Shown here: positions 19,700-23,991 of the stretch, one piece after another
Layout of the letters: each line of letters begins with the position of its first letter
Position numbering within the stretch: position 1 is the first letter of the stretch
Origin: Brachybacterium vulturis
GTDB taxonomy: Bacteria > Actinomycetota > Actinomycetes > Actinomycetales > Dermabacteraceae
Direction: 5' to 3'
Assembly: GCF_002407185.1 (NCBI RefSeq)
Contig: NZ_CP023563.1
Span: 2,232,001-2,296,000, forward strand
DNA length: 64,000 nucleotides
The notes under the pieces: model-generated
Seen by the model: the letters and a program-made list of their open reading frames with translations, nothing else
What the model was told of the DNA's origin: nothing
Databases searched by the model: none
Made by a program: the position numbers and the translations under genes

Positions 19700-19792
19700 G
19701 GGGAGTCGGCGCCGCGCCCCGACGAGAGCGCGGGGGAGACCTCGCACCGGGGCGCGCCGGGGCAGGCGGTGCCGAGCACCCGGCCGTCCCGA

Positions 19793-19798
19793 TACCCT
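19793..19798 (+). promoter_or_regulatory. -10 element of the UGPase gene (leaderless)
   Basis: TACCCT with six bases before the ATG at 19805. It fixes this ATG in preference to an in-frame upstream start. Confidence 0.5.
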
Positions 19799-19804
19799 GG
19801 TCCC

Positions 19805-21193
19805 ATGAGCACTGAAGGACTTGCCGCAGCGCAGCAGAAGATGGCCGAGGCCGGTGTCGCGCAGACCGCGATCGACGTCTTCTCCCACTACTACGGACAG
19901 CTCGAGGACGGGGTCACCGGCTCCATCCCCGAGGACACGATCGATCCGTTCCTCGACCCGCCGCAGCTCGAGGACGTGAAGGTCGACGTCGGTCACGCCA
20001 AGCAGGTCTTCGACCAGCTCGCGATCATCAACCTGAACGGCGGCCTGGGCACCTCGATGGGCCTGGACCAGGCCAAGTCGCTGCTGCCGGTGCGGGACGG
20101 CAAGAGCTTCCTGGACATCATCGTCGAGCAGGTCCTCGCCGCCCGGCGCGGCACCGGCTCCCGCCTGCCGCTGGTCTTCATGAACTCCTTCCGCACCCGC
20201 GAGGACACCCTCGAGGTGCTCGCGAAGTACCCCGATCTGCCCGTCGGCGACCTGCCGCTGGACTTCCTGCAGAACAAGGAGCCCAAGCTCCGCACCGACG
20301 ACCTCGCTCCGGTCGACTGGGACGCGGATCCCGCGCTCGAGTGGTGCCCGCCCGGCCACGGCGACATCTATACCGCGCTGCAGACCTCGGGCCTGCTGCA
20401 GCAGCTGCTCGACGCCGGCTTCAAGTACGCCTCGGTCTCCAACTCGGACAACCTCGGCACCGTCCCCAGCCCCGTCATCGCCTCCTGGTTCGCGGCCTCC
20501 GGCGCCCCCTACGCCGCCGAGCTGTGCCGCCGCACCCCCGCGGATCGCAAGGGCGGACACCTCGCGGTGCGCAAGTCCGACGGTCGGCTCATCCTGCGCG
20601 ACACCGCGCAGACCCCGGCCGAGGAGATGGACTACTTCACCGACGAGCACCGTCATCCGTTCTTCCACACCAACAACCTCTGGTTCGACCTCGAGCAGAT
20701 GGCGGCGGTGCTCGAGGAGCGCGGCGGCATCATGGGCCTGCCCCTGATCCGCAATGAGAAGACCGTGGACCCGGCCGACAAGACCAGCACCCCCGTCTAC
20801 CAGATCGAGTCCGCCATGGGCGCGGCGATCGAGGTGTTCGACGGTGCGACCGCGATCGTCGTGGGTCGTGACCGGTTCCTGCCGGTCAAGGCCACCAGCG
20901 ACCTGCTGCTGGTGCGCTCGGACGCCTACGCCCTCGACGAGCGGGCGGCCCTCGTGCAGCAGATCGACGCGATGCCCACGGTGTCGCTGCACAGCGGTTC
21001 CTACAAGCTCATCCAGGACTTCGAGCCGCGCTTCCCCCATGGTGTGCCCTCGCTCAAGGACGCCGTCAGCCTCGACGTGCAGGGGGACTGGACCTTCGGG
21101 GCCGACGTCTCCGTGGTCGGTGACGCGGTGCTGGGCGAAGAGGGCGGCGAGGTGCCCGAGGGCGCCCGCGTCGGCACCGCCTCCGCCGGCTGA
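19805..21193 (+). CDS. UTP-glucose-1-phosphate uridylyltransferase (UGP2-type)
   Basis: A 462-residue enzyme that makes UDP-glucose from UTP and glucose-1-phosphate for cell-surface polysaccharides and trehalose or glycogen pathways. It belongs to the eukaryote-like UGPase group, with the nucleotide-binding [20 protein letters not shown] motif (about residues 76-95, LNGGLGTxMG), [21 protein letters not shown] and [10 protein letters not shown]. Bacterial GalU enzymes are shorter, near 300 residues, and lack these. No membrane or signal segment is present. Its 3' end abuts a 586-nt repeat-rich intergenic region. Confidence 0.93.
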
Positions 21194-21261
21194 GCCGGGC
21201 CCCGGGCGCCCGAGGTGCGGCCCTGGCCCTGGCCCCGGCCTCGGCCTCGGGCACCCCAGGC

Positions 21262-21342
21262 GCGGCGACTGCTGCGGCCCCGGGCACCCGAGGTGCGGCG
21301 ACTGCTGCGGCCCCGGGCGCCCGAGGTGCGGCGACTGCTGCG
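21262..21342 (+). repeat. 33-bp tandem repeat, about 2.5 copies
   Basis: Two consecutive 33-bp units at 21262-21294 and 21295-21327 differ at one base, and a third at 21328-21342 is cut off after GCGGCGACTGCTGCG, where the palindromic element P1 continues. Units begin GCGGCGACTGCTGCGGCC and end CCCGAGGT. An earlier partial copy of the unit end lies at about 21199-21219. Confidence 0.85.
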
Positions 21343-21384
21343 TACGGCACCGCTCAGACGCTCGATACGGTGCCGAACGCAGCA
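21336..21384 (+). repeat. Palindromic element P1
   Basis: Arms GCTGCGTACGGCACCG (21337-21352) and CGGTGCCGAACGCAGC (21368-21383) pair over 15 of 16 positions, with one further T-A pair outside and a 15-nt loop. The arms match those of P2, P3 and P4. Confidence 0.85.
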
Positions 21385-21409
21385 CTCGGTGTGTGCTGTG
21401 GTGGCCGAC

Positions 21410-21458
21410 TGCGACGTACGGCATCACTGGCGCAGCGTGAAGGGTGCCGTACGCAGCA
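21410..21458 (+). repeat. Palindromic element P2
   Basis: Arms TGCGACGTACGGCATC (21410-21425) and GGTGCCGTACGCAGCA (21443-21458) pair at 13 of 16 positions plus one G-U, with a 17-nt loop. Both arms resemble those of P1, and P1 and P2 each begin with CGACTGC just upstream. Confidence 0.85.
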
Positions 21459-21510
21459 TCGGGTGGTTGCCCGAGCGGGATCCCTGCAGTGTCACGCTGC
21501 GCCCGCTACC

Positions 21511-21624
21511 GCTCCCGCTCCCGCTCCCGCGCCACGCCGCGCCCGGCCACGCCCGCGCCGCGCCCGCTCCCGCGCCACGCCACGCCCGCGCCGCGTCCGC
21601 TCCCGCGCCACGCCGCGCCCGACC
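21511..21624 (+). repeat. GC-rich tandem repeat
   Basis: Three copies of a unit starting GCTCCCGCGCCACGCC at 21523, 21566 and 21599, with lengths 43, 33 and about 26 nt. Preceded by GCTCCC triplets from 21511. Function unknown; it lies 160 nt before the nuclease-like gene. Confidence 0.75.
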
Positions 21625-21779
21625 TACCCGACCGAACAGCGGCGAGCACGCCACCAGCTTCCCGTCTCGGAGCTCGCTCGCCCTCGGGCCATGCCTGGGG
21701 AGGATGCGTCGACGCGGCTGCGACCAGGTCGTTGTGGAGCGAGTGAACGACTGCGCGTCGGTCCGCGGATGCTGTGGCG

Positions 21780-22814
21780 ATGCCGACCACACCGACTCCG
21801 CTCCCGGACGGGCTCTCGTCCGCAGTCTTCAGCACGCAGGAGGCACGCCGTGCCGGAGTGACGCGGGGGAGGCTCCGTGCTCGCGATCTCAGGTCCCTGT
21901 CACGTGGGCTCTGGGTGCGCGGCGATCGAGTCCTGTCCGAACGCGAGATCGTCGCCGCGCTCTGTCGTCGTGATCCAGCGGTGTTCGCGATGGGGCTCAC
22001 CGCTGCGCGGCTCCTCGGTTTCCCGTTGCCGGGCGTCGTCGCGCAGGAGGTCGTGGCGGCACCCGAGCAGGAGCATCGGGGTACGGGCCGCTCCGCTCAC
22101 GGCCCCGGCAGGGGCGGCGTCGACCTGAGGATCCATCTGGGGACCGGGCAGTCGCGCCGCCGAGACACCTCACTGATGCGGTGGAGCCTGCGCGCTGCGG
22201 ACATCCTCGATCAGGATCTGCTCCTCCTGCGGGGCGCGCCCACGGTGCGCACCACGTCTCGGATCCGCACCTTCCTGGACCTCGGGGACGTTCTCGCCAG
22301 GGATGCCCTCGTCGCCGTCGGTGATCACCTGGTGCGACAGCCCCGACCGCGGTACGAGGGCCGGGACACTCCGTTCGCCACGGTCGTCGAGCTCGCCGAG
22401 GCCGCCACCGGTCATCGCGGTCGCGGGGCCCGGAGACTCAGGGAGGCGGTCGCCCTGGTGCGCATGAGCAGCGATTCGCCGCCCGAGACCGCGCTGCGAC
22501 TGGCGGCGGTCCGAGCCGGTCTGCCCGAACCGCTGGCCAACGTCCGCGCGGAGCAGATCCAGCCCGAGGGGACCGTCCTGGACCTCGGAGAACCTGACCT
22601 GCACTGGCCGCAATGGCGCGTGGCGCTCGAGCATGAGGGCCCGACGCACCTGGACCGGGAACAGGTGCCCAAGGACATCGCCCGCGGAGAGCGACGACGC
22701 GACGCCGGCTGGATCGAGGTGCGCACCACCTACGCGGACCTTCCTCACGGCTGCCGCTCGGCCGTCGCGAGAATGTGCAGAGCCCTGGAGATGCAGGGCT
22801 GGAGAGCCGGATGA
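21780..22814 (+). CDS. AbiEi-like winged helix with a DUF559/Vsr-type nuclease-like C-terminus
   Basis: A 344-residue protein. Residues about 15-50 (TQEARRAGVTRGRLRARDL, then RGLWVRGD) resemble the winged helix of AbiEi-type antitoxin proteins. The C-terminal segment from about residue 266 (LDLGEPDLHWPQWRVALEHE, then HLDREQVPKDIARGERRRDA and GWIEVRTTY) has the strand-turn pattern of DUF559/Vsr-like endonuclease domains (PD-(D/E)XK fold): D, then E-x-E, then a helix with R and GW. The middle is unassigned. Catalytic competence cannot be judged. No AbiEii toxin follows, so it is not a standard AbiE pair. Copies of one palindrome lie on both sides. The ATG at 21780 has GATGCT six bases upstream, but a GTG at 21774 is also possible. 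Confidence 0.72.
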   Translation: MPTTPTPLPDGLSSAVFSTQEARRAGVTRGRLRARDLRSLSRGLWVRGDRVLSEREIVAALCRRDPAVFAMGLTAARLLGFPLPGVVAQEVVAAPEQEHRGTGRSAHGPGRGGVDLRIHLGTGQSRRRDTSLMRWSLRAADILDQDLLLLRGAPTVRTTSRIRTFLDLGDVLARDALVAVGDHLVRQPRPRYEGRDTPFATVVELAEAATGHRGRGARRLREAVALVRMSSDSPPETALRLAAVRAGLPEPLANVRAEQIQPEGTVLDLGEPDLHWPQWRVALEHEGPTHLDREQVPKDIARGERRRDAGWIEVRTTYADLPHGCRSAVARMCRALEMQGWRAG

Positions 22815-22843
22815 GCGGAGCTCCGGTGCTGTGCGGCGTGGGC

Positions 22844-22892
22844 TGCGACGTGCGCCCCGGCGCTGTGAGCATGGGTCTCGCAGCATCGGGTG
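22844..22892 (+). repeat. Palindromic element P3 (degenerate)
   Basis: Same order as P2: TGCGACGT at the left end and CGCAGCATCGGGTG at the right end, with a shorter and more diverged centre. It follows the nuclease-like gene stop by 29 nt. Confidence 0.65.
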
Positions 22893-22898
22893 TCGCCC

Positions 22899-22944
22899 AC
22901 GGCGTGACTCAGGTGCGGGGAGGGATGCCGTTCGCAGCAGTCGG
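22899..22944 (-). repeat. Palindromic element P4 (reverse orientation)
   Basis: On the minus strand the arm GACTGCTGCGAACGGCATC (22924-22942) matches the P1 left arm at all but two aligned positions of the core. The opposite arm is reduced to ACGGC. The element overlaps the 3' end of the acyltransferase gene and supplies its last codons. Confidence 0.7.
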
Positions 22945-23991
22945 TCGGGGCTCGCGCGGGCCGTCGTCCTGGGAGCGGACCAACAGGTCGCCGATCGGGG
23001 GGTCGGTCAGCCAGCTGGTCACTCTGCCGACCACGGTGGTGGACAGGATCGCCGTGAGCAGCAGTGCGGCGGCGACCATTCCGAGGGTGCCCCACCAGCT
23101 CACCAGCCACTCCGGCAGCTCCTCGGCATAGCGGATGGGCAGCAGCAGCACCGGGTGCAGCAGATAGATGGTCAGCGAGCGCTCGCCCATCGCGGTCAGC
23201 GGGGAGCGGCCGCGGGGCGTGACCAGCAGGATGGCCAGGCTCCCCGCGACCCCCGCCAGCAGCACCATCACCTGCAGGAGCATGCTCAGCAGGAGTCCTC
23301 TGTCGTCCTCGTACCCCGAGCGCAGGTAGAAGATCGAGGTGGGCACCCGGTCGTCCACCAGGTAGGCGACCGCCACGGCGGCCAGCAGCACCGCACCGCC
23401 CAGCCACCGGTGCCGGAAGGCCTTGACGCGCTCGAGCATCTCCGGCGTGGCGATCAGCCCGAGCACGAAGAACGGGAGCATCTCCGCCAGCCGGCCCACG
23501 CTCAGCACGGAGCCCAGATCGGGATCCAGCGGGGCGATCACCGAGATGGCGACCGCGAACATCAGCGGATGCTTGAGCTGCCGCAGCACGGGGGTGAGCA
23601 GACGCCATCCCAGCAGCGCGACCAGGAACCACAGCGTCCACGCCGGCAGCAGCAGCTGCAGTTCGAATTCGCTCCCGAGCAGCAGGGCCTTGCCCGTCTC
23701 GTGCACCATCTGGAAGATCACGTACGGCACGACCATCGCGGTGAGCAGGCGCCGCACCTGGCGCGGCTCGTTGCGGTACGAGCGCGAGAGGTACCCCGAG
23801 ATCATGATGAACGCGGCCATGTGGAACGAGTAGATCGCCGTGTACAGCGTGCCGCCGAGCACATCGGCGGTGTTCTCGAAGCATTCGATGGTGTGGCCCA
23901 CCACGACGAGCGCGATCAGCAGGCCGCGCGCATTGTCGAGGTAGGGGTCGCGCGGCCGGCGGGGCCGGGTGGTCGCTTCGGTGGTCGACAT
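22909..23991 (-). CDS. Acyltransferase 3-like membrane protein
   Basis: A 360-residue integral membrane protein with about ten hydrophobic segments. The N-terminus RDPYLDNARGLLIALVVVGHT carries the family's first helix with the catalytic-like His, and SFHMAAFIMISGYLSRS with a second His and SGY. These match the acyltransferase family 3 / Fuc4NAc-type O-acetyltransferase group, which acylate cell-surface sugars at the membrane. The acceptor is unknown. GAAGGA precedes the ATG at 23991. The C-terminal residues TAANGIPPRT and the stop codon are encoded by palindromic element P4. Confidence 0.85.
   Translation of the reverse strand: MSTTEATTRPRRPRDPYLDNARGLLIALVVVGHTIECFENTADVLGGTLYTAIYSFHMAAFIMISGYLSRSYRNEPRQVRRLLTAMVVPYVIFQMVHETGKALLLGSEFELQLLLPAWTLWFLVALLGWRLLTPVLRQLKHPLMFAVAISVIAPLDPDLGSVLSVGRLAEMLPFFVLGLIATPEMLERVKAFRHRWLGGAVLLAAVAVAYLVDDRVPTSIFYLRSGYEDDRGLLLSMLLQVMVLLAGVAGSLAILLVTPRGRSPLTAMGERSLTIYLLHPVLLLPIRYAEELPEWLVSWWGTLGMVAAALLLTAILSTTVVGRVTSWLTDPPIGDLLVRSQDDGPREPRPTAANGIPPRT

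Follow-up and report, generated by a model that had tools for sequence, protein, structure and literature searches.

Extragenic palindromes are widespread, and to our knowledge the HUH-type RAYTs are the only enzyme family tied to their spread. Classical REPs occur in hundreds of copies; the 10–18 sites found here are few by comparison. In the IS200/IS605 elements a nuclease gene lies between terminal hairpins, an arrangement similar to that of the present locus. Unlike them, however, our locus has no HUH transposase and gives no sign of movement as a whole unit. For the REPIN/RAYT systems, PMC8266576 describes a correlation between the presence of the RAYT gene and of the hairpin. According to PMC7319586, the inverted repeats bound by AbiEi and by Rv2827c are 23 bp long, with spacings of 3 and 13 bp, and neither protein bound the repeats of the other.

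The system described here resembles the REPIN/RAYT REPtrons in that short extragenic hairpins are dispersed in the genome and in that the presence of gene and hairpins correlates. As with TnpA-REP, a chromosomal enzyme gene lies beside its own cognate hairpins, our own locus being a weak example, and enzyme and hairpin co-diverge. Unlike in REPIN/RAYT, the arms are long (median 24 bp), several different enzyme/hairpin pairs are found in one genome, and the enzyme is of an AbiEi-Vsr type, as judged from its predicted fold, instead of a Y1/HUH transposase. The Y1_Tnp domain (PF01797) of the RAYT-type transposases was found in none of six genomes, and a positive-control search gave hits in 5 of 14 named genomes. 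RAYT-driven REPs were rejected on this ground. Unlike the GTAG-class REPs, the one hairpin family read in this respect, that of genome G027, has no GTAG beside the stem in its consensus.

The locus and its protein

The window is the whole stretch of 64,000 nucleotides that was analysed. The features at the locus are given below; the core is the sequence GRTGCCGWWCGCAGCA.

19769..21193, plus strand: galU-type UTP-glucose-1-phosphate uridylyltransferase (PF01704, E 3.6e-115), upstream neighbour; this site was compared between species
21332..21388 (best bounds), no strand assigned: P1, upstream hairpin with two exact cores; covariance model score 73.2 bits, P1 itself having been used in building the model
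21406..21462 (best bounds), no strand assigned: P2, second upstream hairpin; covariance model score 70.5 bits, P2 itself having been used in building the model
21774..22814, plus strand: predicted AbiEi-Vsr nuclease gene, an ORF of 346 aa, assigned by fold prediction
22840..22896, no strand assigned: P3, the third palindrome of the original prediction, doubtful and without the core
22887..22943, no strand assigned: P4, degenerate downstream copy with one exact core, overlapping the 3′ end of the acyltransferase ORF
22909..23991, minus strand: acyltransferase (PF01757, E 4.3e-24), downstream neighbour

The nuclease gene is present in one copy in its own genome. The protein has no match in Pfam (E ≤ 0.1) nor in NCBIfam and PADLOC (both E ≤ 1). 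The AlphaFold2 model (pLDDT 90.4, pTM 0.87) predicts an AbiEi-like module at about residues 7–230 and a nuclease resembling Vsr and homing endonucleases at about residues 233–344. Residues 7–230 of the predicted structure match AbiEi (6y8q) with a Foldseek E of 7e-5 and a VIA Z of 9.5, at a high rmsd of 5.9. The similarity of this part to Rv2827c (1zel) is weak (Z 6.3) and is only mentioned, as fold matches with Z below about 8 were kept out of the evidence. The predicted nuclease domain matches I-Bth0305I (3r3p, Z 12.1), NGO0050 (3hrl, Z 10.7) and Vsr (1cw0, Z 9.7) over 92–99 residues, and 3hrl is also linked weakly at the sequence level (E 0.032). We take NGO0050 to be DUF559-like. Besides the predicted fold, the protein shares with these nucleases the residues E238, D275, H292 and D301, which are conserved without exception in the 36 enzymes that were aligned. 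Unlike the Vsr/DUF559 families, it is not recognized by Pfam and has the AbiEi-like module fused to it. Of the original designation as an AbiEi/DUF559-like gene, the nuclease-like character holds by predicted fold; at the sequence level DUF559 finds no support. The protein is predicted to be an AbiEi module joined to a Vsr/homing-endonuclease-like nuclease with putative catalytic activity.

The predicted AbiEi fold is a likeness to the AbiE type IV toxin–antitoxin system. Unlike in AbiE, no AbiEii nucleotidyltransferase toxin gene is adjacent at this locus, the neighbours being galU and the acyltransferase. Further differences are the fused nuclease and the downstream and dispersed copies of the palindrome.

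Palindromes in the window

It had been claimed that the core recurs at least four times within 1.6 kb and is not noticed elsewhere in the window. This is correct. The window contains exactly four exact copies, all at this locus (21336–21351 on the minus strand; 21369–21384, 21443–21458 and 22924–22939 on the plus strand), and a fifth site with two mismatches (21410–21425, minus strand). The exact copies are not distributed one to each palindrome, as P1 has the core in both arms and P2 and P4 in one arm each. The whole genome (3.80 Mb) has five exact matches, the only one outside this locus being at C1:1744275, and a sole site with one mismatch at C1:3613187. With up to two mismatches the core is found at 43 places in the genome and the reversed pattern at 8. 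When three mismatches are allowed, the 10 sites in the window are within the chance range (on average 7.0 after shuffling, with 10 reached in 18 of 100 cases), and therefore only close copies count.

Of the two upstream hairpins, P1 folds strongly (z −6.45 as DNA, equalled by 0 of 200 shuffles) and P2 modestly (z −2.41; 6 of 200). P4, which was absent from the model-building set, is recovered by the covariance model at a genome-wide E of 3.9e-4 and folds no better than its shuffles (z −0.29; 68 of 200). P3 is missing from the covariance-model matches at E ≤ 0.1 and its fold is not exceptional (z −1.19; 27 of 200). Of the four palindromes said to bracket the gene, P1 and P2 therefore stand, P4 survives as a degenerate copy, and P3, without core and model match, is doubtful and unsupported. 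The match between the upstream and downstream flanks of this locus scores 37, a value that 6 of 25 controls also reach, and the locus fails this test. Taken by itself the locus in the window is weak evidence.

Matched hairpins at homologous genes

Homologues are present in 72 of 98 relatives searched and, in a second genus, in all 61 genomes. At many of them two long hairpins, alike within the locus, bracket the gene (arms median 24 bp, loops median 9). This geometry resembles the 23-bp inverted repeats of AbiEi and Rv2827c as described in PMC7319586. The hairpins differ between homologues, including paralogues of one genome, and several distinct enzyme/hairpin pairs coexist within one genome.

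Among the named-genome loci (L101–L180, the best 80 of 152 relatives, two of which were left out as their flanks were too short) the alignment of upstream and downstream flanks scores at least 40 in 68 of 78, compared with 0 of 150 shifted control windows. At a score of at least 36 the numbers are 71 of 78 and 5 of 150. A hairpin on each side of the gene is found at 50 of the 78 loci and in none of the 150 shifted windows. In the set of G genomes 48 of 88 loci (2 of 90 being left out for short flanks) lie above the 99th percentile of 2,200 between-locus scores; this set shares loci with the named set, and the two flank tests are thus not independent. Within a locus, the hairpins of the 39 hairpin-pair loci situated in G genomes score 57.9 on average, a mean inflated by choosing loci with a hairpin pair scoring at least 26, whereas same-genome paralogue pairs average 15.5 (17 pairs, highest 23), a value which is not raised by this choice. 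The repeats are real, and the pairing of nuclease and palindrome is well supported by the relatives. The outcome that would have spoken against a link with this gene family, an even spread of the palindrome, was not obtained.

For the co-divergence we used the 89 of 170 loci with a hairpin pair of at least 26, of which 76 remained once those with at least 95% identity were removed. Hairpin similarity follows enzyme similarity (Mantel rho 0.28, a value reached in 0 of 2,000 permutations). The mean hairpin similarity is 70.4 at 80–95% enzyme identity, 52.6 at 65–80% and about 13–16 below 65%. Considering the domains separately, rho is 0.24 and 0.26 for the AbiEi-like parts and 0.32 for the nuclease domain, and the partial correlations do not favour the AbiEi-like module. 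As the AbiEi-like parts are not better correlated than the nuclease domain, the specificity is not located by this analysis.

Dispersed hairpins

In Brachybacterium G027 16 cognate hairpins stand alone between genes besides the flanking pair. Half-sites of the G027 hairpin arm number 33 in G027, 8 in G001, where the enzyme comes with a similar hairpin, and 0–3 in each of the 36 other genomes; the reversed control pattern has no match in G027. The G027 half-sites make up 18 sites (two with one arm recognized), which have common edges inside unlike flanks. Another Brachybacterium, G025, has about 16 sites, about 14 of them away from the gene. A second arm sequence is present in 2 of 38 genomes, both of which carry the matching enzyme. 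With the covariance model of our own hairpin type we found 10 distinct sites each in G000 and G037 and 0–4 in each of 36 others. Of the 10 model sites in the window's genome three belong to the gene locus, and the remaining seven are candidate dispersed copies, one of them inside a predicted ORF; five of the 10 had served in building the model. These copy numbers (10–18 sites) are modest.

In the 61 genomes of the second genus at least three half-sites are found in 20 of 32 with the cognate enzyme and in 5 of 29 without (Fisher 5.7e-4, not corrected for kinship). The cognate class is defined by a best hit of at least 69% identity, and in four of its members (G132, G151, G136, G107) the gene is incomplete; 6 of its 32 genomes have no half-site. 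Genomes with the cognate enzyme are therefore where the dispersed copies concentrate, but the restriction is not strict.

Could the palindromes be ordinary intrinsic terminators or chance products of GC-rich DNA? Some gene-less galU loci do have GC-rich terminator-like hairpins, and P3 and P4 fold like shuffles. However, none of the 150 control windows had a flank match of at least 40 or two-sided hairpins, and the dispersed copies are near-identical, with no match of the reversed pattern in G027. We regard this explanation as extremely improbable. A chance origin is contradicted by the arm counts, the common-edge sites in G027 and the flank controls, and known RNA families were discarded, as six loci gave no Rfam match at the gathering score.

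All 29 dispersed sites tested in G027, G025 and G029 are intergenic, in loci which are 84–88% coding. Seven of the roughly 14 sites of G025 away from the gene entered this test, and several sites of G025 and G029 are orthologous, so that the 29 are not all independent. By our count from the table, the neighbouring genes are convergent at 15 sites, tandem at 11 and divergent at 2, with one site left unassigned.

These positions bear on the possibility that the hairpins are operators of the AbiEi type, the upstream copy serving autoregulation and the dispersed copies being other regulated or structural sites, with no spread driven by the protein. According to PMC7319586, proteins of the AbiEi family repress their own promoters via 23-bp inverted repeats; the arm length fits, and the 50 loci with hairpins on both sides have one upstream of the gene. 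Promoter sites, however, should favour upstream positions, whereas few of the dispersed sites are divergent and a matching hairpin is also found downstream of the gene. Moreover, a repressor does not need a nuclease, yet the four putative catalytic residues are invariant, and the copies have sharp common edges with unlike flanks. An operator function as the whole explanation is in our view rather unlikely.

A probable counterpart of REPIN/RAYT

In our view the system is probably a REPIN/RAYT counterpart of independent origin: an AbiEi-Vsr nuclease would recognize the arms of the hairpins and cause these to spread and turn over. The chances are somewhat better than even that it is a second, independently evolved REPIN-like kind, whose nuclease propagates its own long intergenic hairpins, with several specificities per genome, and which diversifies across the actinobacteria. 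The original prediction had seen a resemblance to REP elements with a RAYT, but with a nuclease of the Vsr/DUF559 type. The flanks, the co-divergence, the dispersal, the lack of Y1 in six of six genomes and the predicted AbiEi and Vsr-like folds agree with it.

We infer that the enzyme moves the hairpins, that is, it would bind and cut DNA and thereby drive the spread. The locus would belong to a large family of paired nucleases and hairpins in Brachybacterium, Arthrobacter, Pseudarthrobacter and related actinobacteria. The AbiEi-type module would bind the approximately 24-bp arms of the protein's own hairpin. Then, the Vsr/homing-endonuclease-like domain could nick or cut the DNA at the hairpin, perhaps near the CGA...TCG base. 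Repair or strand transfer might copy the hairpin of about 57–63 bp into new intergenic sites, and the same process could homogenize existing copies, with one being lost cleanly now and then. The hairpins which bracket the gene would hold enzyme and hairpin linked.

In the titles and beginnings of abstracts of the open-access literature we found no link of DUF559-, AbiEi- or Vsr-like nucleases with dispersed palindromes; a report which is not openly accessible is possible. If the proposal is true, a REP-like lifestyle has arisen more than once, here with a non-HUH nuclease and its cognate hairpins. Studies of how hairpins spread in GC-rich actinobacteria would then have an enzyme to test, and a large, multi-copy and unnamed gene family would have a role. 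The dozens of natural enzyme/hairpin pairs could further be used to study how an AbiEi-type module reads 24-bp sites.

Presence and absence at orthologous sites

One clean difference was observed. Locus L156 has a hairpin where L132, 94.4% identical, has GATCGAT. In the tree the two are sisters beside L165, which has the hairpin, and the difference reads as a loss. The hairpin has short repeats at its base, and slippage between them could produce such a loss without the enzyme. Of 63 loci scanned, the 23 matching the anchor were compared, and at this site the hairpin is present in 10 of the 23, alternating with absence. Two other candidates were rejected. At the L241 site G016 lacks the hairpin seen in G025 and G029, but about 190 bp are missing and there is no precise insertion edge. 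G011 was considered as empty-site partner of G027; G011 carries a similar half-site at its contig end, and there is no empty site.

The alternation matters for the view that the host keeps the hairpins because they act in termination, at mRNA ends or in chromosome structure, and that the nuclease processes or repairs them, with no selfish spread. Such a role would suit intergenic sites, often between convergent genes, and the orthologous hairpin sites retained in G025 and G029. The paired changes among the G027 copies (12 cells compared with 4.9 in shuffles, 0 of 500) would suit it as well. A general structural role would, however, not require the two tested arms to be almost absent from genomes that lack the cognate gene, nor does it sit well with alternating presence or with the missing Rfam matches. 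We think this view quite improbable.

The preferred reading, in which the nuclease spreads single hairpins, can also be compared with the movement of palindrome, gene and palindrome as one unit whose ends are the palindromes. In the window about 1.7 kb including the gene separate galU from the acyltransferase, whereas in six relatives the acyltransferase follows galU directly with no nuclease between. At the galU site two species, G003 and G001, have the gene in inverted orientation, and genomes have several homologues at different places. All this would fit a composite unit. Yet, 30 galU loci were read in the set of 38 genomes, and 12 of them have a homologue at this site, which suggests vertical inheritance and loss. 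Precise edges of a whole unit were not found, since the intergenic DNA of the six gene-less relatives is too diverged for edges at the base level, and 16 of the 18 G027 hairpins are away from the gene. Among 72,556 plasmid records and 50,697 phage records just 3 and 1, respectively, have a homologue at E ≤ 1e-5, for which reason plasmid or phage cargo was also rejected. We hold transposition of the whole unit to be improbable. Where a mobile or selfish unit or a repeat-processing system had been proposed, the REP-like pairing is upheld and the moving whole unit is less supported. At the galU site of G002, which is without the gene, there is a different solo palindrome, and this genome still has four sites of our own model.

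The locus in the window

The nuclease-like gene is preceded by a galU-type gene and followed by one for an acyltransferase. According to the original prediction four palindromes surround it, P1 and P2 upstream and P3 and P4 downstream. P1 and P2 stand and P4 persists in degenerate form; P3 is supported neither by the covariance model search nor by folding.

Features of the locus (window coordinates)
21332-21388, P1, clear hairpin
21406-21462, P2, modest hairpin
21774-22814, + strand, nuclease-like gene, 346 residues, single copy in its own genome
22887-22943, P4, degenerate copy, detected by the covariance model and not by folding

As predicted, the core GRTGCCGWWCGCAGCA is confined to this locus within the window (four exact copies); the 3.80 Mb genome holds five. 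The upstream and downstream flanks match with a score of 37, equalled or beaten by 6 of 25 controls, and the locus by itself is a weak case. Three 33-nt head-to-tail repeats (21231-21342) lead into P1, each terminating in CGACTGCTGCG, the sequence that forms the P1 arm's left end. They look as if a hairpin tip had been amplified.

Matched hairpins at homologous genes

Homologues of the enzyme are present in 72 of the 98 relatives searched, frequently several in one genome. In a flank scan of 30 homologues many have a long hairpin on each side and a few have none; the arms are alike inside one locus and unlike from locus to locus. We then compared 78 of the 80 loci from named genomes with 150 control windows shifted by 2.3 kb at the same loci. 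The flanks match at a score of at least 40 in 68 loci versus none of the shifted windows, and at a score of at least 36 in 71 loci versus five; hairpins on both sides occur at 50 loci versus none. In a second set, which overlaps the first, the match at 48 of 88 loci lies above the 99th percentile of 2,200 scores taken between loci. Hairpins of paralogues inside one genome are dissimilar (mean 15.5, highest 23, 17 pairs); pairs within a locus score 57.9 on average (39 loci, selected by a pair score of at least 26).

At five loci (L069, L070, L083, L090 and L093) short tandem repeats, inverted between the sides, flank the homologue instead of clear single hairpins. A further homologue, with matched flanks (score 94; no hairpin of at least 11 pairs among those listed), lies on a contig of 67% GC titled Sporosarcina beigongshangi (L134), probably an actinobacterial contamination of that assembly.

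Enzyme and hairpin diverge together. Among 76 non-redundant loci, selected by a hairpin pair score of at least 26, greater enzyme identity goes with greater hairpin similarity (Mantel rho 0.28, 0 of 2,000 permutations equally high). Mean hairpin similarity is 70.4 at 80-95% enzyme identity, 52.6 at 65-80% and about 13-16 below 65%, yet each locus's own pair stays matched (59.4). Thus change proceeds in step across the two flanks and across the two arms of every hairpin.

The enzyme

The AlphaFold2 model of the window protein (36 sequences) is confident (pLDDT 90.4, pTM 0.87) and predicts an AbiEi-like and a Vsr-like fold. Residues 7-230 resemble the AbiEi antitoxin 6y8q (Foldseek E 7e-5; Z 9.5, rmsd 5.9, 180 aligned), and residues about 233-344 the homing endonuclease I-Bth0305I (Z 12.1, rmsd 2.2, 95 aligned), NGO0050 (Z 10.7) and Vsr (Z 9.7). 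All 36 of the 36 aligned sequences share E238, D275, H292 and D301, a pattern consistent with the EDxHD motif.

Among 152 hairpins CGA...TCG stands at the base of 89, versus 13 when the same test is applied further in. The hairpin arms have a median of 24 bp and the loops of 9. AbiEi is reported to bind two 23-bp inverted repeats spaced by 3 bp and Rv2827c 23-bp repeats spaced by 13 bp, and neither protein bound the repeats of the other (PMC7319586). Given the similar arm length, an AbiEi-type module reading each arm would be the natural model.

Dispersed copies

The hairpin arm beside the enzyme of another genome of the genus, G027, has 33 half-sites there, 8 in G001, whose enzyme carries a similar hairpin, and 0-3 in each of the 36 remaining genus genomes; the reversed control pattern has no match in G027. 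The half-sites group into 18 sites, of which two adjoin the gene and 16 lie elsewhere (two of these 16 with just one arm recognised), so that copies standing alone, as had been asked, do occur. They have common edges (CACCGAG...CTCGGTG) in unlike surroundings. In the G027 copies both partners of a pair are altered in 12 cells versus 4.9 in shuffles (0 of 500), which is mild support only, since related copies can beat such shuffles without structure. A second arm is restricted, among the 38 genomes, to G025 (9) and G029 (13), the two genomes that carry the matching enzyme; in a DNA search G025 has about 16 places, including two at the gene, and G016 about six related ones. Three diverged hairpins lie inside 12 kb in G025 (L250, C1:2363000-2375000), and the G027 copies are likewise bunched on a few contigs.

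A covariance model built on seven hairpins like those of the window gene, five from its genome and two from G037, recovers 10 separate sites in the window's genome (three at the gene; five had gone into the model) and another 10 in G037, whose enzyme is 90% identical (two had gone into the model). In the 36 other genomes it finds 1-4 sites in 16 and none in 20, some of these matches being other hairpin families (G027, G028).

Copies are also concentrated in gene-bearing genomes of a second genus, to which G051 belongs (61 genomes, G051 arm as query, cognate enzyme at least 69% identical): 20 of 32 genomes with the enzyme have at least three half-sites versus 5 of 29 without (Fisher 5.7e-4, uncorrected for kinship). 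Against the association, six of the 32 have no half-site, and five genomes that lack such an enzyme (G115, G126, G142, G148 and G149) carry copies. In G132 the cognate nuclease is broken into two frames (C21:33451-34379) and 13 half-sites persist, which may reflect a pair that died recently or an error in the sequence.

All 29 dispersed sites tested (16 in G027, six in G029 and seven of about 14 in G025, several of the latter two orthologous) are intergenic by gene prediction, in loci that are 84-88% coding. The main rival explanation is that the hairpins are AbiEi-type operators and the dispersed copies a regulon. Divergent-promoter positions are rare (15 convergent, 11 tandem, two divergent, one undetermined), hairpins also lie downstream of the gene, and the nuclease residues are invariant; all three argue against regulation as the whole explanation. 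In the window's genome five of six loci are intergenic; the sixth, C1:496156, lies within a predicted ORF and is thus possibly a chance match.

Presence and absence

At one orthologous intergenic site in Arthrobacter/Pseudarthrobacter the hairpin is present in 10 of 23 loci compared and absent in 13. The precise edges sought for presence and absence were found here for the hairpin: L156 and L132, 94.4% identical, differ by ATCGAT-hairpin-GTCGAT against GATCGAT. In the tree both are sisters, followed by L165, which has the hairpin, and then by L129, which lacks it, so that L132 would have lost the hairpin cleanly; the short repeats at the hairpin's ends could have brought this about by slippage, without the enzyme. 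For the whole gene such edges were not obtained. In six relatives the acyltransferase gene directly adjoins galU and the gene is absent, compatible with gain or loss alike.

At the galU site of G003 (L199) and G001 (L203) the nuclease is reversed relative to the ten other species having it there, and a hairpin still adjoins; the gene may have been inverted between its flanking palindromes or inserted separately. In G002 (L186) a perfect palindrome of 16 bp, belonging to another family, takes the nuclease's expected place downstream of galU, and a window-type hairpin lies past the acyltransferase gene.

Proposed mechanism and known systems

Most likely, the protein would bind the hairpin arms, its nuclease domain would nick or cut at the hairpin base, and copying or strand transfer would then spread and homogenise the hairpins. 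The pair flanking the gene would keep enzyme and hairpin linked. What the data show directly is the layout of the loci, the matching and co-divergence, the dispersal and its concentration in gene-bearing genomes, the predicted folds and one clean polymorphism; binding, cutting and spread by the enzyme are inferred.

The predicted resemblance to REP elements with a RAYT transposase holds in that the system would work like REPIN/RAYT; it is not a member, since the defining HUH transposase was found in none of six genomes searched. With no toxin gene next door at the window locus, we do not class it as an AbiE toxin-antitoxin system either. A search of the open-access literature gave no report of such a pairing of nuclease and dispersed hairpins. 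The lifestyle itself is already known; enzyme and repeat are both unrelated to the known kind.

Hardly any plasmid (3 of 72,556) or phage (1 of 50,697) record holds a homologue; RAYT genes, likewise, are said to act like housekeeping genes (PMC8266576). A 6.7 kb record titled 'Bacteriophage sp.' (MT837503.1:4953-5984) carries a homologue 58.7% identical and is possibly a mislabelled chromosomal contig.
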